The position numbers and the translations under genes are program-made. 16,946 bases of DNA from an uncultured Flavobacteriales bacterium (GTDB lineage: Bacteria > Bacteroidota > Bacteroidia > Palsa-965): NCBI GenBank assembly GCA_946478675.1, contig CAMLEF010000059.1, positions 1-16,946 of the forward strand. The letters run 5' to 3'. The notes below the pieces were generated by a model. That model was given only the letters and a program-made list of their open reading frames with translations, was not told where the DNA came from and searched no databases. Of the stretch, positions 3,686 through 15,774 are shown in pieces (within the stretch, counting starts at the first letter, position 1; every line of letters begins with the position of its first letter).

Positions 3686-4138
3686 ATGATGCCCCGGCTG
3701 TTGCTTCTTTTATTGCTCACGCTCCCTTTCCGCCTCCCGGCGCAGGAAGTTCATACGGCCGAAGTAAAGCCCGCCGACAGTCTCGGCACGACCGTCGTTA
3801 ACGACACGCTTTGTTACGTGGAAACCGGAACGGCGAGTTGGTACGGCAAAAAAGCCGAAGGCCACCGCACCGCCAGCGGCGAGATCTTCCACGCCGACAG
3901 TCTCACGGCCGCGCACAAAACACTTCCGATGGGAACGCTCGTTCGCGTCACCAATCTCAAAAACGATTCGGTCGTCATCGTCAAGATCAATGATCGTTTG
4001 CCGAAGTCGACGAAATCGCGTTGCATCGACCTGACTTCGGGCGCGGCGCGAAAGCTGGGCTATTTGCGGGCGGGACTGGCGCCGGTGAAAATCGAAGTGA
4101 TCGGGGAAGCGCCGGTTTACCGGAAACCGAAACGGTGA
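3686..4138 (+). CDS. rlpA: RlpA-family septal ring lytic transglycosylase-like protein
   Basis: 150 residues: a signal peptide (residues 1-19, poly-Leu core, ending LPAQ) followed by a double-psi beta-barrel of the RlpA type. Visible motifs are TASWYG (49-54), RTASGE (61-66), LTAAHKTLPMGT (73-84), VRVTNL and IND (101-103). E66, H77 and D103 have the same 11- and 26-residue spacing that I recall for the catalytic Glu/His/Asp of Pseudomonas RlpA. Known for the family: secreted peptidoglycan glycanases acting on denuded septal glycan; some members only bind. The C-terminal SPOR domain of the proteobacterial protein is absent, as in many short Bacteroidota versions, and no lipobox Cys is seen, so the mature protein is probably soluble in the periplasm. 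Two adjacent ATGs (3686, 3689) make the exact start ambiguous by one residue. It is monocistronic: the previous gene is divergent and the next is 303 bases away. Confidence 0.88.
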   Translation: MMPRLLLLLLLTLPFRLPAQEVHTAEVKPADSLGTTVVNDTLCYVETGTASWYGKKAEGHRTASGEIFHADSLTAAHKTLPMGTLVRVTNLKNDSVVIVKINDRLPKSTKSRCIDLTSGAARKLGYLRAGLAPVKIEVIGEAPVYRKPKR

Positions 4139-4145
4139 AAGTAAT

Positions 4146-4277
4146 GTACGATTTACGAAGTACGATTTACAATTTCCGGTATATCAGCATTTGATTTTCC
4201 CTGCTTGTTCGAGCGGAGTCGAGAACCTTTCGCATTACAATGCACCAGGTTCTCGACTCCGCTCGAACAAGCAGGGA
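4146..4277. repeat. Intergenic composite repeat: direct 11-mers plus 31-bp perfect palindrome (element B)
   Basis: GTACGATTTAC occurs twice, at 4146-4156 and 4160-4170. It is followed by a perfect inverted repeat whose arms are 4198-4228 and 4247-4277 (31 bp each). The loop is 18 bases and itself contains GCATT/AATGC. The core of each arm is TTCGAGCGGAGTCGAGAACC. A related palindrome occurs at 14443-14521. The element takes up about half of the 303-base gap 4139-4441. It would form a very stable hairpin in RNA and could end transcription of the RlpA-like gene, although there is no T-tract. The remainder up to the box at 4379 holds nothing I recognise. Confidence 0.85.
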
Positions 4278-4386: not shown

Positions 4387-4441
4387 TTACGGAAATTTTG
4401 CGCCTCACCCAACCTCCCGGCGTTTTCCTGCGTGTATACGG

Positions 4442-5053
4442 ATGAATAGTGACTGGTCCATAGGACAACCCAGCAATGTGCCGATCGTAGACGACGAACA
4501 GCTCCTGGATGCGTGCGCCCGCAATGACCGCCGGGCGCAGTACCGGCTTTACAGCCAGTGCTATTCATTCTTAATGGGCATTTGCATCCGTTATACCGTT
4601 TCGCGCGACGATGCCGAGGACCTGCTCAACCGCAGCTTCCTCAAGATCCTGCAGAACATCGGCGGCCGCCGTAAGGAAGTGCCGTTCGGCCTCTGGGCCC
4701 GCCGCATCACGATCAACACGATCATCGACGAGTTTCGCAAGAAAAGGAAGGAAGCGGCACAAACCGAGATCGTCGATTTCACCGAGCGCGCCGACGAATA
4801 CGATTCCGTGACGGTGAACAGCTACCTGCGGAAAGTGGAAGCGGAACAATTGCAGGCGCTCATCGACAAGCTCCCCGAAACCAGCCGGCAGGTGTTCAAC
4901 CTTTTTGCCGTCGACGGTTTCAGCCATAAAGAGATCAGCGCAATGCTCGGCATGTCGGAAGGCACTTCGAAATGGCACATGAACAACGCGCGCACACGAC
5001 TGAAAGAAATGATCGCCCAACAGCTCCCTCAACTTAAAACAATCGCTTCATGA
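4442..5053 (+). CDS. ECF-type sigma-70 family RNA polymerase sigma factor (Das-like)
   Basis: 203 residues. Sigma region 2 spans about 26-102: DDAEDLLNRSFLKIL (56-70) is the core-binding/-10 helix, and the LWARRITINTIIDEFRK stretch (84-100) is a typical ECF region 2.3-2.4. Region 4 spans about 135-192: LPETSRQVFNLFAVDGFSHKEISAMLGMSEGTSKWHMNNAR is the signature helix-turn-helix for -35 recognition. The first 20 residues are a short non-conserved extension. The stop codon overlaps the next ATG (ATGA at 5050-5053), so translation is probably coupled to the anti-sigma-like protein, which argues for a cognate pair at fixed stoichiometry. Known for the family: ECF sigmas are held by a membrane anti-sigma factor and released on an envelope signal. 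Inference: this one responds to an outer-membrane signal through its partner and probably autoregulates the operon. Confidence 0.92.
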   Translation: MNSDWSIGQPSNVPIVDDEQLLDACARNDRRAQYRLYSQCYSFLMGICIRYTVSRDDAEDLLNRSFLKILQNIGGRRKEVPFGLWARRITINTIIDEFRKKRKEAAQTEIVDFTERADEYDSVTVNSYLRKVEAEQLQALIDKLPETSRQVFNLFAVDGFSHKEISAMLGMSEGTSKWHMNNARTRLKEMIAQQLPQLKTIAS

Positions 5054-6573
5054 GCAACGAAGAGCAATCGTTCGAAGAGCTGGTCAGGGAAAAGCTGAAC
5101 CAACGCACGTTTTCGCCGGGAGCAAACAGCTGGGCGAAAGCGGAGCAATTGCTGGATGCGCAACAGCCGCGCAAACGCCGCTTCGTTTTCTGGTGGAGCG
5201 CTGCGGTATTGCTGCTCGCCGGGATCACGGCAGGTAGTTATTTCTTTTTCAGCGGAAAGAATGAACAACGTCTTTCGCAGGAAACAACGACGAATTCCTC
5301 AGCAAACGCATCGCAGCAAAACCGGAATGATCAGCATTCAGATGCGATGAACGGCGCAACGAATAACGAAGCGAATCCTTCTTCTTCCGTTACGAAAGAG
5401 AAAGATCCGCTGCAGGGAAATACAAATACTTCCGATCAAACTGTTGCGCAGCAGGGTGAACATCATTCTTCAGAGCAAAAAATCTCTGCAGGAAACGCTT
5501 CTCCTGCTTCCGCGGAAAACACTTCTGAAAAAACTGCGAATGCTTCTTCCGCAAAAACTTCTTCTTCGCAACAACACAGCAAACATTCTTCTGCGTCATC
5601 TTCTTCGAAAGCTGGAGTCGTTGTCAGCAACAATGCTGCCTCCGGCAATTCTTCCGCTGCACAAAATCATCCTGCGAAATCAACATCGTCGGGCGAAGAA
5701 AAGTCACACGTAAAATCTTCTTCTTCGCAGGACGGACAGCCGTATTCTTCCACGCACACTTCCGAAACAAACAACCGCACGCTCGCGACCCATTACACTG
5801 CCGACACCGCGATGCAGCGACTTTCTCCTGTGCAACCGAATCTCGACACAACGCTCCAGCATGCGGCAGCAGCGCAAATCAATCCCGATACCGCGATGCA
5901 GCACGTTGCGCAGCAGCATCCCGACACGAGCAATCCGCACCAGGAATATCAGCCTCCCGCATCGCACAGCGCGAATGTGAATTACTGGTTCGCGGAAGCC
6001 GGGTTCACCTTCCTTCCCGGCATCACCGGCATGCTGCGCTCTGTGAATCCTGTTATCGGCGGCGGTTACTGCATTCGTCTCGGGCAAACGTTCGGATTGC
6101 AGGCTGGCCTCAATTACACTTTTGTGAATCACATTTCCGACAGCAGCGTGGTGTACGCTTCGAACACGTACAGCTTCGGGCTGGAAACGCAGCGCACGGA
6201 GATCGGCCTGCGACGCCTGCATTACCTGGCCGCGCCGGTCACCGTGTGGTGGCATCCCGACAATAAACAGGCGATCTTCGGCGGCGTGGCGTTCCATTAC
6301 CTGCTTGCCACCGAAAGCCGCGAGCGCACTTACACGGAAACGTTCACGAGCATCAAGAATGAAAAAGTACGTTCCGTGTTCGGTTACGCGCAGGGCATTT
6401 CCGGCGGCGACGTTTTGCTCATGGGCGGTTACGCGCGCACGTTCGGCGCACACTGGACGATCGGCGCGGCGTTCTATTACGGTGTTGCCGACCTGAAGAA
6501 CGACGATTGGTATCACGTAACCAAAGCGGAACACAATTCCGGTTTGCGCCTCACTCTTCAATACGGATTCTGA
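5050..6573 (+). CDS. Dual membrane-spanning anti-sigma-like protein with C-terminal outer-membrane beta-barrel (Dma-like)
   Basis: 507 residues in four zones. Residues 1-44 are cytoplasmic-like, with FEELVREKL ... SPGANSWAKAEQLL resembling the short N-terminal anti-sigma segment common in such Bacteroidota proteins. Residues 45-67 are one hydrophobic helix preceded by RKRR (positive inside). Residues ~69-307 are a low-complexity, probably disordered linker rich in Ser, Asn, Gln, His and Ala. Residues ~308-507 are an outer-membrane beta-barrel: alternating aromatic/Gly strands such as GFTFLPG and AGLNYTF, and a terminal LTLQYGF ending in Phe, the usual C-terminal signature of outer-membrane proteins. 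It overlaps the sigma gene by four bases. Known: B. thetaiotaomicron Dma proteins have this topology, inhibit a cognate sigma (Das) and affect outer-membrane vesicle formation. Inference: same role here. The alternative, a plain OmpA-like protein, does not explain the N-terminal helix or sigma coupling. Confidence 0.82.
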   Translation: MSNEEQSFEELVREKLNQRTFSPGANSWAKAEQLLDAQQPRKRRFVFWWSAAVLLLAGITAGSYFFFSGKNEQRLSQETTTNSSANASQQNRNDQHSDAMNGATNNEANPSSSVTKEKDPLQGNTNTSDQTVAQQGEHHSSEQKISAGNASPASAENTSEKTANASSAKTSSSQQHSKHSSASSSSKAGVVVSNNAASGNSSAAQNHPAKSTSSGEEKSHVKSSSSQDGQPYSSTHTSETNNRTLATHYTADTAMQRLSPVQPNLDTTLQHAAAAQINPDTAMQHVAQQHPDTSNPHQEYQPPASHSANVNYWFAEAGFTFLPGITGMLRSVNPVIGGGYCIRLGQTFGLQAGLNYTFVNHISDSSVVYASNTYSFGLETQRTEIGLRRLHYLAAPVTVWWHPDNKQAIFGGVAFHYLLATESRERTYTETFTSIKNEKVRSVFGYAQGISGGDVLLMGGYARTFGAHWTIGAAFYYGVADLKNDDWYHVTKAEHNSGLRLTLQYGF

Positions 6574-6574
6574 G

Positions 6575-7678
6575 ATGAACAGGACGCTCTTCTTTTTTCT
6601 TTTGCTGATCGTTCCGCTGCTGCACAGCTGCCGGAAAGATGATCCTGCTGTGCCTGCCAATGGCACGCCGGTGTTTCATGCGACGGGCCGGCTCGACAGC
6701 ACATCCTTCAACCTGGAAGCGGGCGTGAATGATTATTACATGTACAGCTCCTACTCGTCCGATGCGCAGGATGTTTATGAATTCAAAGGAGAGCTGAAAA
6801 AACAGAATTGCGCTTCGCCCTGCCCCAACAGTCTTACGCTGCGCATCCGTGATTACGCTACGCACACGTCGCAGCAAACGATGATCGCCACTTCGCTTTC
6901 GCCGGGTTATTACAATTACCAGACGACCACCGGCAATTCCTACACGATCAATTTCACGTCGCAGGCTTCCGGCGATTCAGCTTATCAATATTCCTGGGAT
7001 TTCGGCGACAGCCAGTATTCCACGCAGATGAACCCGACGCACACGTACAACGCCGCCGGTTATTATTACGTCTGTCTTTCCGTCACCGGCATTTTCACAT
7101 CGACAAACGATACTTTTTGCGACAGTATTTACGTCGGCGCGCCGCAGCTGATCACGCCTTCGTTTACGGCAACCCCGCTGGCACCTACTGATTCGGTATC
7201 CTTTGTTGCATCTGCCAGCGGGGGAACGCCGCCGTATTCCTACTACTGGATCTTCGGCGATGCCACGTCGGCTTCGGGCAGCTCCGCAGTGCACGGCTAT
7301 TTCCTGCCGAACGTTTACACGGTGAAGCTGATGGTGACGGATGCGGCTTCGAACACGGCTTACGTTCGTAAAAACGTAGCTACGGCGAATACCAACAGCT
7401 GCGTTTCCAATTTCACCTGGCAGCCGCAGTTCGCACTGAACCTTTCGCAGGTGACGATCGAATGGACCGACGCGGCCGGCAACGTTTACACCTCTGCCGA
7501 TCCGCAGCAATCGTCCAACAGCACGTTCCAGCTTCTCTCCGTCGAAGATTACGCCGCCAACGAAAACCAGCAATCCACGAAAAAGATCCATGTACTGGCC
7601 AATTGCACGCTCTATCACGGGGCGAGCACGATACAGCTGCAGAACGCCGACCTTGTTTTTGCCGTGGCCTATCCGTAA
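6575..7678 (+). CDS. PKD-domain lipoprotein, third gene of the sigma/anti-sigma operon
   Basis: 367 residues. The N-terminus is a lipoprotein signal peptide with lipobox L-H-S-C (Cys19) followed by RKDD. At least two PKD modules follow: about 121-187, with the signature YSWDFGD (139-145) and NPTHTY (153-158), and about 195-268, with YYWIFGD (223-229). The regions before (30-120) and after (275-367) show no recognised domain; there are several Cys residues that could form disulphides. The start is one base after the stop of the anti-sigma-like gene, so it is certainly in the same operon. No T9SS sorting domain is present, so it probably reaches the outer membrane by the Lol route. Inference: a ligand-binding or structural partner of the envelope-sensing system, or an effector of it; the sequence does not decide between these. 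Confidence 0.85.
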   Translation: MNRTLFFFLLLIVPLLHSCRKDDPAVPANGTPVFHATGRLDSTSFNLEAGVNDYYMYSSYSSDAQDVYEFKGELKKQNCASPCPNSLTLRIRDYATHTSQQTMIATSLSPGYYNYQTTTGNSYTINFTSQASGDSAYQYSWDFGDSQYSTQMNPTHTYNAAGYYYVCLSVTGIFTSTNDTFCDSIYVGAPQLITPSFTATPLAPTDSVSFVASASGGTPPYSYYWIFGDATSASGSSAVHGYFLPNVYTVKLMVTDAASNTAYVRKNVATANTNSCVSNFTWQPQFALNLSQVTIEWTDAAGNVYTSADPQQSSNSTFQLLSVEDYAANENQQSTKKIHVLANCTLYHGASTIQLQNADLVFAVAYP

Positions 7679-7768
7679 TTTTTTCATCGTTAACCCAACC
7701 TTCCCCCCCAACTTCGCGTGTATATCACCGAAAAGCTCTCCTGGAATCATCCATTTATTTCAACCTTC

Positions 7769-9127
7769 ATGAAAACCAAGTCTACCTTTCTCAAAACGTT
7801 GCTCGTGGTGATCGCTGCAGGAATTTCCGCAGCTGCTGCCGCTCAATGCCAGGCCGGCTACACTGCGTCCGTCAGCGGTCCCACTGCATCGTTCACCAAC
7901 ACTTCGGTGTATACCGGCTACCCGGTGTATTCCTGGAACTTCGGCGACAATACCTATTCGAACAACGCCAACCCGGCGCACCAGTACCAGGCCGCAGGTT
8001 CGTATGTCGTTTGCCTGACAATGTATGACAGCCTCAACTTCACCGGTTGCTCGAGCAGCTTCTGCGACACGCTCGTGATCACTGCGGGCTGCAACAACTT
8101 CTCGGTGTCTGCAACGTCAACGAACGCTTCCGCCTGCAACGCCTGCGACGGAACGGCGGCAGCAACGCTCACCGGCGGCACCGCTCCGTTTTCGTATGCG
8201 TGGTCGAATAACGTAACGACACAATCGCAGAGCGGCCTGTGCGCAGGTTATTACACGCTGTTCGCGACCGATGCGAATGGCTGCAACGCTTCGGCTACGG
8301 CTTACGTCAGCTGCCCGCAAACCTGCAACGCCTCCTTCCAGGCGAACCCGAGCGGCAACTTCTATTACTTCCTCAACACGTCGAACGACACGATGACCGC
8401 TTCGTTCGTTTGGGATTTCGGTGACGGCAACTATGCATACACCACCAGCGCTTCGCACACCTACGCAACCAGCGGCATGTACGCGGTAACGCTCACCATG
8501 ACGGACTCCGTGAACATGTGCAGCGACACGTTTATCGACACGGTATATGTCGGCAACACGCTGGCTTGCGGCGTCGGTTTCCAGATGATGCAGGATTCCT
8601 TCAACCTGCTGCAGTGGTATGCTTTCCCGACGGTAAGCGGCACCGCGCCGTTCACCTACCTCTGGGATTTCGGCGACAACACGACCTCTACGCAGCAGTA
8701 CCCGACGCACACGTACGCCGTGCCCGGCCAGTACACAGTTTGCCTCTCGATCACCGACGCGACCAACTGCACCAGCACGTTCTGCGATTCATCGTCCGTA
8801 CACCGCGTACACAGCGCTTCCGTACAGTCGCAGCAGATGCAATATTTCACGGCGCTTTCCGGCCCGCTCGGCATCAGCGAACATTCGAATGAAGTAACGC
8901 TGCACGCCGCACCGAACCCGGCATCCGATGAGCTTCTCATCACGATGACTGCACCGGTCGACGGCAACATCCGCATCACGGACCTCACCGGCAAAGTCGT
9001 TGCAGAGCAGAAGATCAATGGTCAGCAGTCGCGCATCGACGTGAGCACGCTGCCGGTTGGTTGCTACAGCCTCAGCGTGGTTTCCGGCGCTTCAACATGG
9101 AACCAGCGCGTTGTGATCGTACGTTGA
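7769..9127 (+). CDS. Secreted PKD/SprB-repeat protein with T9SS type A sorting domain
   Basis: 452 residues from the ATG at 7769, chosen because it begins a clean signal peptide (MKTKS, a hydrophobic core, AAAAAQ near 26); an in-frame ATG at 7718 would put 17 extra residues before it. The order is PKD (about 31-104, YSWNFGD), a SprB-type repeat (about 109-177, CDGTAAATLTGGTAPFSYAW then GYYTLFATDANGC), PKD (184-262, FVWDFGDG), PKD (266-343, YLWDFGD), and a T9SS type A sorting domain (376-452: APNPASDEL, TDLTGKVV, VGCYSLSV, ending VVIVR). Known: SprB is the gliding adhesin of Flavobacterium, and its repeats occur in many surface proteins. Inference: a surface protein or adhesin. A 90-base gap separates it from the PKD lipoprotein with which it shares the PKD theme, so it may be read-through or have its own promoter. 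A terminator follows. Confidence 0.9.
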   Translation: MKTKSTFLKTLLVVIAAGISAAAAAQCQAGYTASVSGPTASFTNTSVYTGYPVYSWNFGDNTYSNNANPAHQYQAAGSYVVCLTMYDSLNFTGCSSSFCDTLVITAGCNNFSVSATSTNASACNACDGTAAATLTGGTAPFSYAWSNNVTTQSQSGLCAGYYTLFATDANGCNASATAYVSCPQTCNASFQANPSGNFYYFLNTSNDTMTASFVWDFGDGNYAYTTSASHTYATSGMYAVTLTMTDSVNMCSDTFIDTVYVGNTLACGVGFQMMQDSFNLLQWYAFPTVSGTAPFTYLWDFGDNTTSTQQYPTHTYAVPGQYTVCLSITDATNCTSTFCDSSSVHRVHSASVQSQQMQYFTALSGPLGISEHSNEVTLHAAPNPASDELLITMTAPVDGNIRITDLTGKVVAEQKINGQQSRIDVSTLPVGCYSLSVVSGASTWNQRVVIVR

Positions 9128-12606: not shown

Positions 12607-13083
12607 ATGTACGCTTTTTCCATGTTTCTCCCGCTGCCGGAACGACCTGTCAAACCGGCCCGTCGTATTCATCATTCGCTCGGTATCGACCAGTCTTCCA
12701 TTGAGATCCGCTCCACGCAAAGCGGCATTACGGAATTTCATTCGTTCATGGACAAGCTGCAGCAGGAATGGTCGATCCCCGATCCGTTGTTTGCACGATT
12801 GCTCATCGCCGTTTCCGAAGCCGTATTGAACGCCGTTTACCACGGCAATAAATTGTCGGCCGACAAATATGTAACGGTCACGTTCGAGCGCACGGAAGAA
12901 CTTTTTTCCGCTACGGTAGAAGATGAAGGAGATGGATTCGCTCACCGCCGCTATGGAACACCGCTCGAGGATTTCGAATTGCTGAAACCGTCCGGCCGCG
13001 GCATTTTCATTATGCGCCACCAGTCGGATTTCGTCTACTATTCGAATCGCGGCAGTAAAGTGAAGCTGCTGTTTTACAAGTAG
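12607..13083 (+). CDS. RsbW/SpoIIAB-like ATP-binding protein (HATPase_c_2)
   Basis: 158 residues with the GHKL ATPase boxes: N-box SEAVLNAVYHGN (70-81, with Glu71 and Asn75), G1 DEGDGF (106-111) and G2 GRGIFIM (130-136). There is no histidine-kinase DHp domain, so it belongs to the anti-sigma regulatory factor / serine kinase type rather than a sensor kinase. Known members bind a sigma factor or phosphorylate a STAS-domain antagonist. Neither a STAS protein nor a PP2C phosphatase is visible in the window. The first ATG at 12607 is used; ATG 12622 would remove five residues and leave the domain intact. The gene is convergent with the NtrC-like regulator, separated by the heptamer inverted array. 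Its partner is unknown. Confidence 0.85.
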   Translation: MYAFSMFLPLPERPVKPARRIHHSLGIDQSSIEIRSTQSGITEFHSFMDKLQQEWSIPDPLFARLLIAVSEAVLNAVYHGNKLSADKYVTVTFERTEELFSATVEDEGDGFAHRRYGTPLEDFELLKPSGRGIFIMRHQSDFVYYSNRGSKVKLLFYK

Positions 13084-13088
13084 AGCGT

Positions 13089-13185
13089 GTATTGAGTATT
13101 GAGTATTGAGTATTGAGTATTGAGTACAGAGTATTGAGATTTGTGAATGAAGATTTCTCAATACTCAATACTATCTACTCAATAC
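13089..13185. repeat. Inverted array of GTATTGA heptamers between convergent genes (element C)
   Basis: Five perfect tandem GTATTGA units run from 13089 to 13123. A degenerate unit (GTACAGA, 13124-13130) and a further perfect unit (13131-13137) follow. After about 20 bases the reverse complement TCAATAC appears at 13158-13164, 13165-13171, a degenerate TATCTAC at 13172-13178, and 13179-13185. The array begins five bases after one stop codon, and its last base is the first base of the other gene's stop triplet, so it fills the whole gap. RNA from either strand would fold into a long hairpin, which could serve as a two-way terminator or 3'-end protector. Confidence 0.85.
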
Positions 13186-14348
13186 TACTCCTTCGGTTTT
13201 GCGTAGGCTACGACGTCTTTGTCGGTGATCGTTTTGTCGGAGAGGATGATGAGACGTTCGATCACGTTGCGGAATTCGCGGATGTTGCCGGTCCAGTTGA
13301 TTTTCTGAAGCTCTTTGATCGCATCTTTCGAGATGGATTTCTGCGGCGTACCGTGATCTTCGCTGATTGATTTCAGGAAGTGTTCGGCCAGCAGCGGGAT
13401 ATCTTCTTTGCGATCGTTCAGCGAAGGAACGTGAATAAGAATGACGCTGAGGCGATGGTATAAGTCTTCGCGGAAATTTCCTTTCAGTATCTCCTTTTTC
13501 AGATCTTTATTCGTTGCTGCGAGCACGCGCACATTCACTTTGATTTCCTTGTCGCCGCCTACGCGCGTGATCTTGTTTTCCTGGAGCGCACGCAGCACTT
13601 TCGCCTGCGCGCTGAGGCTCATGTCGCCGATCTCATCGAGGAAGATCGTACCGCCTTCGGCCAGCTCGAACTTCCCTTTGCGCTGCGCAACGGCAGAAGT
13701 AAACGCACCTTTCTCGTGACCGAACAGTTCCGATTCGATGAGCTCGGAAGGAATAGCCGCGCAGTTCACTTCGATGAGCGGTCCGTTGGCGCGGGAACTT
13801 TTTTCATGCAGCCATCGCGCAACAAGCTCCTTGCCCGTTCCGTTCTCGCCGGTGATCAGCACGCGCGCATCCGTCGGCGCCACTTTGTCGATCATGTCTT
13901 TGATCTTCGCGATCGCTTCCGATTCGCCGATCATGTCGTAGGTCTTGCTGATCTTTTTCTTCAGCGAGCGCGTCTCCGTCACGAGCTTCGATTTGTCGAG
14001 CGCGTTGCGGACTGTCACGAGAAGACGGTTCAGGTCGAGCGGCTTCTGGATGAAATCGTACGCTCCTTTTTTTACCGCTTCAACAGCCGTTTCGATATTG
14101 CCGTGACCGGAGATCATGATGACCGGTGCGTCGACGGCAGCTTCCATGAGCTTGTCGAGCGCTTCCATGCCGTCCATCTTCGGCATCTTAATGTCGCAAA
14201 GAATGATGTCGAATTTTTCCTTCTGCGCAAGGTTCAGCCCTTCGAGACCGTCACCGGCTTCTTCTACTTTAAAATTTTCATATTCGAGAATTTCACGAAG
14301 CGTGCGACGAATGCTTTTTTCGTCGTCGATGATCAGGATACGGGCCAT
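13185..14348 (-). CDS. NtrC-family sigma-54-activating response regulator without DNA-binding domain
   Basis: 387 residues from ATG 14348, chosen because [10 protein letters not shown] is the standard receiver start; the frame stays open to 14570 only by reading through the repeat element. The receiver (1-~115) has Asp8/Asp9, phospho-acceptor Asp52 (CDIKMP), Ser80 and Lys102. The AAA+ domain (about 138-370) has Walker A GENGTGKE (167-174), the sigma-54-contacting loop as GAFTSA instead of GAFTGA (214-219), Walker [12 protein letters not shown] (232-242) and [16 protein letters not shown] (351-366). The protein stops at KPKE soon after, so the usual C-terminal Fis-type helix-turn-helix is missing. 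Such regulators (for example FlgR-type) act from solution or through other DNA-binding partners. No cognate histidine kinase is adjacent. Confidence 0.93.
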
Positions 14349-14408
14349 AATGGAATTGTGATGAAGGGTAAAAATACAAATACAGATCAAATCAGCAGGA
14401 GGAAAAAG

Positions 14409-14618
14409 TTGGTGGGGTTGGTTGGGTTGGAAGGTTGGAGTCCCCCGGCTTATTCGAGCGAAGTCGGGAACCTGTTGCATTGGAATGAAACAAGTTCTCG
14501 ACTTCGCTCGAACAAACGGGGAAAAAGCTGCTGTTAAATCGTACGCAGCGTAACCAGCCAACCAACTCAACCAACTTAACCAACCTTATCAACCTTACCA
14601 ACCCTCCACCTCCCCAAC
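14409..14618. repeat. Composite palindromic repeat between divergent genes (element D)
   Basis: From outside in: a G/T-rich arm (14409-14438, GGTTGG words) faces a C/A-rich arm (14551-14618, CCAACC/CCTTATCAACC words). Inside these is an imperfect palindrome (14443-14521) whose core TTCGAGCGAAGTCG at 14453-14466 pairs exactly with 14499-14512. TAAATCGTAC (14535-14544) is the reverse complement of most of the 11-mer found beside the palindrome at 4146. It therefore combines modules of elements A and B. It occupies most of the 376-base gap 14349-14724; the rest holds the candidate promoter at 14657 and nothing else recognised. Confidence 0.8.
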
Positions 14619-14656
14619 TTTTCCTCCCCATCCCACGTATAATTATCCACAGCTGA

Positions 14657-14724: not shown

Positions 14725-15774
14725 ATGAAAAAACTACTCACGATGGCGGTCGTGCTGTGCGCTGCTCTTTCCGCCGACGCGCAGGTTTTCTGCGTTCAGT
14801 GCTTTGATCAGCGAGCGCCGATGAGCACAGGCGTTACCAACCTGATCCAGAACGGAAGCTTTGAAACCCACACCTGCGGAACAATCGGCATGTTTTGCCC
14901 GAATGCTTCCGGTTACCAGTGCGACATTTCCAACTGGACCTGCACCGGCGGCGGACCGTCTACGTACGCGTCGGTTGAGTCGAGCATGTATTCAGCCACT
15001 GCCGACGGGTCGTACTCCGTGTACATGGGCAACTTCTTCTGCAACGCCTGCACGTCCACTACTGACGACATTTCCTGTCTCGTCGATTCCGGCTGCGTGG
15101 TGCACGGCGTTCCGGCAGGTTACCCGACGAACACGCCTTCTTACGGCGGCAACACCGGTCTCAGCCTCGAGCAAACGGTTACGGGACTTACGCCCGGCAA
15201 TTGTTACGTGCTCGAATTCTGGGTGGGCGGCGAAGGCGGCTTCACGGCCCCCGGCATTTTTGCGCTCGACCTCGGCTTCGGCAAAATGTGGCTGCGCTGT
15301 CATATGACGTATCCCAACTCCACCGATCCCGGCCTGCGTTACGTCGTGGCATTCAAAGCCAATGCAGCTTCGCACACGATCCGTTTCACCAATGTCGGAC
15401 ACATTTGCTCCACCTGCACGGAAGCGGTGCTCGACGACGTGATGCTGTATACGTATAATGAGCTTTCACCGTCCATCACAGCCTGCAGCGGCGGTTGCGA
15501 CCGCGTGTTCTCCTGTGAGAATGATTCGGTGACCGTTCCGAACGTGTTCACACCGAATGGCGACGGCAAGAACGACAACCTCGAAGTGCATGCGCTGTGC
15601 GACGTGAAGATCACGATCTACAATCGCTGGGGACAGGAACTGTTCGACGGCAACGGCACCACCGTGAGCTGGAACGGCAAATACAATAATAAGGACGTTC
15701 CCGACGGCGTATATTATTACGTCCTCGAGCAGGAAACCAAATCGCGTACCGGCTTTGTCGAAGTGATACGGTGA
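14725..15774 (+). CDS. Secreted protein with T9SS type B (gliding-motility-associated) sorting domain
   Basis: 349 residues. The signal peptide is MKKLLTMAVVLCAALSADAQ (cleavage near 20). The central region (about 38-255) resembles a beta-sandwich, carbohydrate-binding-like module: NLIQNGSFE near its start, LSLEQTVTGLTPGNCYVLEF in the middle and AVLDDVMLY at its end. It is Cys-rich, so disulphides are likely. The last 79 residues (271-349) are a type B T9SS sorting domain: VPNVFTPNGDGKND, VKITIYNRWGQELF, WNGKYNNKDVPDGVYYYVL, ending VIR. Known: type B domains direct T9SS export and need PorP/SprF-like partners, here not in the window. Inference: a surface-bound or released glycan- or ligand-binding protein. 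It is monocistronic, with its own promoter candidate and a hairpin after it. Confidence 0.9.
   Translation: MKKLLTMAVVLCAALSADAQVFCVQCFDQRAPMSTGVTNLIQNGSFETHTCGTIGMFCPNASGYQCDISNWTCTGGGPSTYASVESSMYSATADGSYSVYMGNFFCNACTSTTDDISCLVDSGCVVHGVPAGYPTNTPSYGGNTGLSLEQTVTGLTPGNCYVLEFWVGGEGGFTAPGIFALDLGFGKMWLRCHMTYPNSTDPGLRYVVAFKANAASHTIRFTNVGHICSTCTEAVLDDVMLYTYNELSPSITACSGGCDRVFSCENDSVTVPNVFTPNGDGKNDNLEVHALCDVKITIYNRWGQELFDGNGTTVSWNGKYNNKDVPDGVYYYVLEQETKSRTGFVEVIR

Follow-up and report, generated by a model that had tools for sequence, protein, structure and literature searches.

A putative outer-membrane-tethered anti-sigma factor of the Dma type, its ECF sigma factor and a conserved PKD lipoprotein in a Flavobacteriales genome, with type IX-secreted surface proteins as predicted targets

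Dual-membrane anti-sigma factors of Bacteroidota have been described under the name Dma. In the part of that report available to us, the proteins combine an N-terminal anti-sigma domain, one transmembrane helix, a long disordered tether and a C-terminal barrel; their genes adjoin an ECF21 sigma gene, and the class is restricted to Bacteroidota (PMC13088901). The experiments described there concern one gut species, with vesicles and glycan-use genes as outputs. Dma2 and Das2 of Bacteroides thetaiotaomicron are BT_1558 and BT_1559, and the dma2 operon comprises das2, dma2, BT_1557 (DUF4943) and BT_1556 (DUF4858), with BT_1555, which resembles nitronate monooxygenases (NMO), beside it. Deletion of dma2 raises das2 and neighbour genes. 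Control of outer-membrane vesicles is published for Dma1, whose output runs through NigD1, and for Dma2; Dma3 (BT_2778), in which a sigma domain is fused to the anti-sigma, had no vesicle effect in the mutants tested (PMC13088901).

Other published work connects ECF sigma factors with type IX secretion. The SigP-PorXY system of Porphyromonas gingivalis links an ECF sigma factor to it in the available part of the source (PMC4800418). For Flavobacterium psychrophilum, the available part of another study predicts an ECF motif, SM6, with the type IX genes GldN and PorU as well as one sigma/anti-sigma pair among its targets (PMC9723704). In the open-licence literature we found no paper joining anti-sigma factors with flavobacterial outer-membrane barrels, and none since 2023 joining anti-sigma factors, type IX secretion, lipoproteins and Bacteroidota.

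Here we analysed a stretch of 16,946 nucleotides (the window) from an uncultured Flavobacteriales bacterium (contig CAMLEF010000059.1, assembly GCA_946478675.1). The genes of the operon, its promoter, the domains of its products and the predicted targets all lie on the forward strand. The predicted operon promoter (4408-4436) consists of CCCAAC at 4408-4413, 17 bases and CGTGTA at 4431-4436. It precedes the gene of a Das-like ECF sigma factor (4442-5053), whose ORF gives a product of 203 aa. The start at ATG 4442 probably lies too far upstream, and the true one is likely GTG 4478, which would give 191 aa and agrees with the relatives and with the promoter. This sigma factor, classed to ECF level only (the Dma class being tied to ECF21), adjoins the gene of a Dma-like dual-membrane anti-sigma factor of 507 aa (5050-6573). 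The ATGA overlap of the two genes, mentioned in a preliminary description of this DNA, is present in the sequence. The third gene (6575-7678) encodes a lipoprotein (Cys19) with PKD domains, 367 aa long. Elsewhere in the window, the stretch from the upstream gene (3686-4138) to the operon promoter contains a perfect inverted repeat (4200-4275) whose arms, 29 bases or longer, flank an 18-base loop, and a HATPase_c_2 protein (12607-13083) adjoins an ORF on the other strand (13185-14570) that by eye resembles a sigma-54-type response regulator.

The preliminary description gave the 507-residue protein a cytoplasmic N-terminus, one transmembrane helix, a disordered linker and a C-terminal barrel, an architecture that hydropathy and predicted structure both bear out. 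Residues 1-38 (5050-5163) form the N-terminal cytoplasmic segment, a predicted sigma-binding helix-Trp-helix. The inner-membrane helix covers residues 45-67 (5182-5250): the hydropathy peak lies at residue 45, just after RKRR, and the structure model has a helix at 27-67, with low confidence for the N-terminal helices. The disordered linker takes up residues 68-307 (5251-5970), with pLDDT below 50 across residues 56-307; as measured it has 244 residues, 10.7% of them hydrophobic. An outer-membrane-type beta-barrel is predicted at residues 308-507 (5971-6570). By the alignment measure, the linker ranges from 113 to 394 residues and the barrel part from 189 to 265 in complete relatives (six proteins are cut, and for L060 and L063 the wrong hydropathy peak was used in measuring the linker). 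The sequence of the linker is not conserved among relatives. An extended chain of at least 113 residues is long enough for a periplasm of usual width, so that the linkers of the complete relatives with the correct peak fit a tether across it.

A search of genome contigs with the 507-residue protein as single query recovered no relative; the relatives' loci were obtained from an alignment search with the sigma factor. A protein search with the same query found 5 relatives among 7989 candidates scored. The sigma profile search of genome records yielded 584 confirmed loci, the best 80 of which were examined; 79 of these are titled Bacteroidota and one merely 'bacterium'. One sigma factor of the family, P0114, is labelled Fimbriimonadaceae, perhaps a binning error. 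Three loci (L028, L040 and L048) stop short of a readable next gene, leaving 77 testable. In all 77 the next same-strand ORF carries the helix-Trp-helix segment and the membrane helix, as judged by eye after the starts of L015 and L053 had been read anew and L039 measured again; in L057 the segment lacks the Trp. The pair proposed in the preliminary description is thus conserved together. Trp28 is the sole column besides Met1 conserved in at least 90% of 78 aligned rows. The two barrel families of Pfam match 42/78 and 19/78 of the partner proteins (E 0.01 or better). The 71 complete ORFs among the 77 are all at least 377 aa long as first called, or at least 389 aa with the re-read starts. A plain porin reading was rejected because the anti-sigma segment and the barrel stay in one gene.

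In some relatives the membrane helix comes only at residues 78-163 because of tandem copies ahead of it. By eye, the N-terminal sigma-binding-type segment occurs in four copies in L016, three in L027 and two in L029, and the Crocinitomix-type proteins of L055, L069, L071, L075 and L077 seemingly contain several degenerate copies before the membrane helix.

Used alone, the N-terminal profile produced 67 matches in 29 of 118 genomes of the phylum. Thirty of these loci were fetched, and all except L101 have such a sigma factor directly upstream. Among the 29 sigma-linked partners, 14 (L083, L084, L086-L088, L090, L092, L093, L095, L098, L100, L102, L105 and L107) are only 204-281 aa long and carry the same N-terminal segment. 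They are too short for linker and barrel. The anti-sigma segment is thus a module, found both joined to an outer-membrane part and lacking one.

We compared the family with Bacteroidaceae-type loci, the label being assigned through the 16S probe Bac303 (2 of 296 genomes) and through the family of those genomes, not by name. The dma2 gene order supports this label: both loci whose downstream genes were scanned for it, L191 and L193, have it. All five dma2-type genes were tested by Pfam in L191; in L193, Dma, DUF4943 and DUF4858 were tested and the NMO-like gene was seen as a similar ORF. An RNA-family search for Bacteroidales had 3 weak matches in the 118 genomes.

The N-terminal profile of the window family matches the Dma proteins of both dma2-type operons (26.2 and 21.6 bits). 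With hhalign, based on 60 of the 78 anti-sigmas after omission of cut and tandem ones, the N-terminus reaches a probability of 94.7 and the barrel one of 96.3 against the dma2-operon orthologues, as opposed to 0.1 for a mismatched-domain control; when the comparison is with the 27 members of the larger Bacteroidaceae-type set, they rise to 96.5 and 98.5. The N-terminal match is the more telling of the two because the barrel families are broad. The window sigma factor shares 31% and 29% identity with the Das2-like sigmas of the two dma2-type operons. A tree was built from 135 sigmas, 47 of them drawn from the 81 of the window group; in it, the 124 with such partners split from 11 with FecR-like or other partners at a support of 0.996. 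This split was obtained after five control sigmas had been re-sorted by eye, L314 and L316 being moved to the 'FecR or other' set and L318, L319 and L328 to the one with 'such partners'; with the sets as assigned automatically, the groups did not separate cleanly. Fusions of sigma and anti-sigma on one chain (547-586 aa) that has a membrane helix and ends in a barrel-like part were found in 11 of the 12 fused-frame loci examined in Bacteroidaceae-type genomes, and the sigmas of these Dma3-like fusions sit in the window sigma clan. A FecR-type anti-sigma was rejected as an identity for the partner, which had no FecR family match in Pfam or NCBIfam at E 0.1.

The dma2-type order (DUF4943, DUF4858, NMO) is absent in the window, where the next genes encode the PKD lipoprotein and a PKD type IX protein. 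Taken together, the profile homology, the sigma tree and the differing gene order place the window pair, as far as sequence comparison reaches, as a distant Dma-type pair and not as a Dma2 orthologue. Membership in the Das/Dma type, asserted in the preliminary description, is supported in this wide sense: all four published domains are present and the profiles match proteins of dma2-type operons.

The PKD lipoprotein is the third gene in 63 of the 65 testable loci, the window included. Two Crocinitomix isolates (L055 and L075) are among the carriers of all three genes. A profile of its first 125 residues, built from 11 seed members, matches 61 of 63 callable third ORFs and two missed by the gene caller (L001 and L049). 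An earlier profile over the first 230 residues also matched other PKD proteins and was replaced. In L023 and L041 neither the third ORF nor any other ORF of at least 80 aa matches the profile. The alignment used 54 of the 61 rows, and in these the lipobox Cys is invariant. The structure model of the lipoprotein is confident (mean pLDDT 91.9); Pfam recognises mainly PKD parts, and the Foldseek and VIA matches likewise cover mainly the PKD part. Across the 118 genomes the profile has matches in six: three strong ones adjoin anti-sigma matches, and three weak ones look like lipoprotein leaders only, with no sigma in the stretch fetched. Among the listed downstream ORFs of 15 Bacteroidaceae-type loci (L187-L201) the profile has no match.

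The sequences upstream of the sigma genes share a promoter-like motif. CCAAC and CGT stand exactly 17 bases apart in 56 of 76 upstream regions, the very regions in which the motif had been noticed; other gaps occur 0 or 1 times each, with a shuffle mean of 0.26. A motif before a sigma factor's own operon is the usual sign of self-control, and the prediction that the sigma factor controls its operon is well supported at the sequence level. The longer form CCAAC-N17-CGTRTA, defined after the window sites were seen, has three copies in the window (starts 4409, 7695 and 14614) and none in 200 shuffles. The second copy (7694-7722) lies 48 bases before ATG 7769 and the third (14613-14641) 85 bases before ATG 14725. 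The third copy is weakened by its position inside a CCAAC-like repeat; a run of this repeat occupies 14560-14612, immediately before it. In 20 genomes of the loci, CCCAACY-N16-CGTRT has 81 matches, compared with 16 and 18 when the spacing is changed by +2 and -2, and with 34, 24 and 32 for the reversed patterns; 17 of the 81 are the operons' own promoters, the same letters as in the upstream-region count. At gap 17 the motif occurs at 0 of 30 Bacteroidaceae-type sigmas; among 29 loci from the phylum at large it is seen once. The Bacteroidaceae-type upstream regions (L111-L140) are enriched in GCAGTAT, TACTGCA and CACGTGT, and those of the wider phylum (L081-L110) in GCAACC and GTCTAT, perhaps the promoters of the respective groups.

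The two downstream copies in the window point to surface proteins as targets. The predicted target at 7769-9127 is a PKD protein with a type IX secretion tail (Por_Secre_tail) and that at 14725-15774 has a CHU_C type IX secretion domain. Type IX domains were found in 3 of 9 window proteins scanned, and the motif precedes both of those whose upstream DNA falls within the window. We fetched 63 sites with the true spacing, one of them an own-operon promoter (L266 (593)), and 34 control sites, some loci being shortened by contig ends. Only 7/63 true-spacing sites lie inside an ORF of at least 120 aa, compared with 24/34 control sites, and a start follows within 350 bases at 42/63 sites versus 9/34. 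By a crude hydropathy rule, the protein at that start has a signal-peptide-like segment at 34/63 sites and at 2/34 controls.

Of the 59 proteins that have a start, 46 were scanned with Pfam after removal of own-operon rows and duplicates; several of these are cut at 5 kb, so that tails can be missed. These 46, the window's two included, gave 15 matches to Por_Secre_tail, 10 to CHU_C, 18 to PKD and 2 to HATPase_c; the last indicate that the targets are not all type IX proteins. Outside the window, the 44 scanned proteins gave 14 Por_Secre_tail and 9 CHU_C. Counted per site, type IX tails follow 23/63 sites and 3/34 controls (p 0.004), where the 23 presuppose that the two kinds of tail never occur in one protein, and two of these proteins come from outside the 63. 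When only ORFs with a start are counted, the proportions are 23/44 and 3/9 (p 0.47, not significant), two of the three control ORFs being copies of one gene. Por_Secre_tail is common: each of 4 genomes has at least 150 matches to it. A second motif site lies 3.17-3.37 kb past the operon's own, beyond the lipoprotein gene, in 7 genomes (3.29 kb in the window). The protein after it, judged by eye, is long and of secreted type in L236, L287 and L294, short in L238 and kinase-like in L285; nothing is callable after it in L247 and L251. Control of type IX cargo by the sigma factor is thus a good prediction. The suggestion of the preliminary description that the output might differ from that of the known pairs fits this motif evidence, which points to the own operon and to type IX-secreted proteins.

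We consider it likely that the window encodes a Das/Dma-type pair in which an outer-membrane-tethered anti-sigma factor controls its own operon and secreted surface proteins, with the lipoprotein as a third partner. Residues 1-38 would hold the sigma factor at the inner membrane, helix 45-67 would cross that membrane, the disordered linker would traverse the periplasm, and the barrel would sit in the outer membrane as a sensor. A change at the barrel or the cell surface might then free the sigma factor, by conformational pull or by cleavage. The freed sigma factor is predicted from the DNA to read CCAAC-N17-CGTRTA and to transcribe its own operon (sigma, Dma and lipoprotein) as well as genes for type IX-secreted surface proteins such as those at 7769-9127 and 14725-15774. 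New Dma protein would re-capture the sigma factor and close the loop; the published effect of the dma2 deletion may be compared. The lipoprotein may serve as a sensor cap or belong to the output. More tentatively, and with less than even confidence, the Dma barrel and the PKD lipoprotein might together gauge the cell surface, one chain setting the supply of type IX-secreted proteins.

An unlikely but considered alternative is that the barrel is a built-in check of outer-membrane assembly: a protein whose barrel is not inserted would be degraded, the sigma factor freed and an envelope-stress response produced. A single chain stable only on reaching the outer membrane would serve such a check, and the narrower length range of the barrel part (189-265 residues), next to a linker that varies from 113 to 394, is in keeping with it. 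However, secreted surface proteins are abundant among the predicted targets, the 25 most frequent target families shown include neither a chaperone nor a periplasmic protease, and the barrel core of six close relatives has many invariant polar residues, seemingly more than insertion needs. We regard it as distinctly improbable that the motif belongs to another sigma factor and that the window pair controls something else. ECF sigmas of one group often share promoters, and another sigma factor of the same group could read the motif, but its presence at the own operon in 56 of 76 loci argues against this. Somewhat less probable again is a linker cut in normal life, the inner-membrane half acting as anti-sigma and the barrel half as an independent porin-like protein. 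The linker is indeed long, disordered and not conserved in sequence; yet the parts stay in one gene in 71 complete ORFs of at least 377 aa, barrel families are recognised in 42/78 and 19/78 partners, and in some fusions the sigma factor is part of that chain as well. FecI-FecR-type cell-surface signalling, which likewise joins an ECF sigma factor to a one-helix partner in Bacteroidota, is highly implausible, as control sigmas whose partners look FecR-like by eye lie outside the clan, and those partners differ.

If the more tentative reading, with barrel and lipoprotein gauging the surface, is correct, transcription of secreted cargo would be wired directly to the outer membrane, with no two-component system in between. 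The Dma architecture and its sigma factor can now be followed through many other Bacteroidota records, together with a constant partner gene, and the promoter motif is sharp enough for target prediction. Two questions thereby become accessible to experiment: what it is that the barrels of Dma proteins sense, and whether the supply of type IX-secreted surface proteins is set by a pair of this type.

Among the systems linked to type IX secretion, SigP-PorXY resembles the window in tying an ECF sigma factor to this pathway; as described in the available part of the source, SigP acts on secretion-machine genes, downstream of a two-component system, unlike what is predicted for the window (PMC4800418). 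The SM6 study is the nearest precedent, with an ECF-type motif whose targets include a sigma/anti-sigma pair and type IX genes. In the available part of that study, by whose description alone the likeness is drawn, the type IX targets named are parts of the machine and no dual-membrane protein is described (PMC9723704). Dma1/Das1, known here through the partial description in PMC13088901, belongs to the architecture class of the window pair. Dma3 is one sigma-anti-sigma chain, whereas the window has two separate genes. The Dma2/Das2 operon has DUF4943 as its third gene where the window has the PKD lipoprotein; the window motif was not seen at dma2-type loci, and the type IX-secreted proteins predicted as output of the window pair are unlike that of Dma2. 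What the two pairs share is the four-part architecture, an adjacent ECF sigma factor, a further gene of unknown function next in the operon, although of different families, and a detectable homology of anti-sigma segment, barrel and sigma factor, seen with two dma2-type operons.
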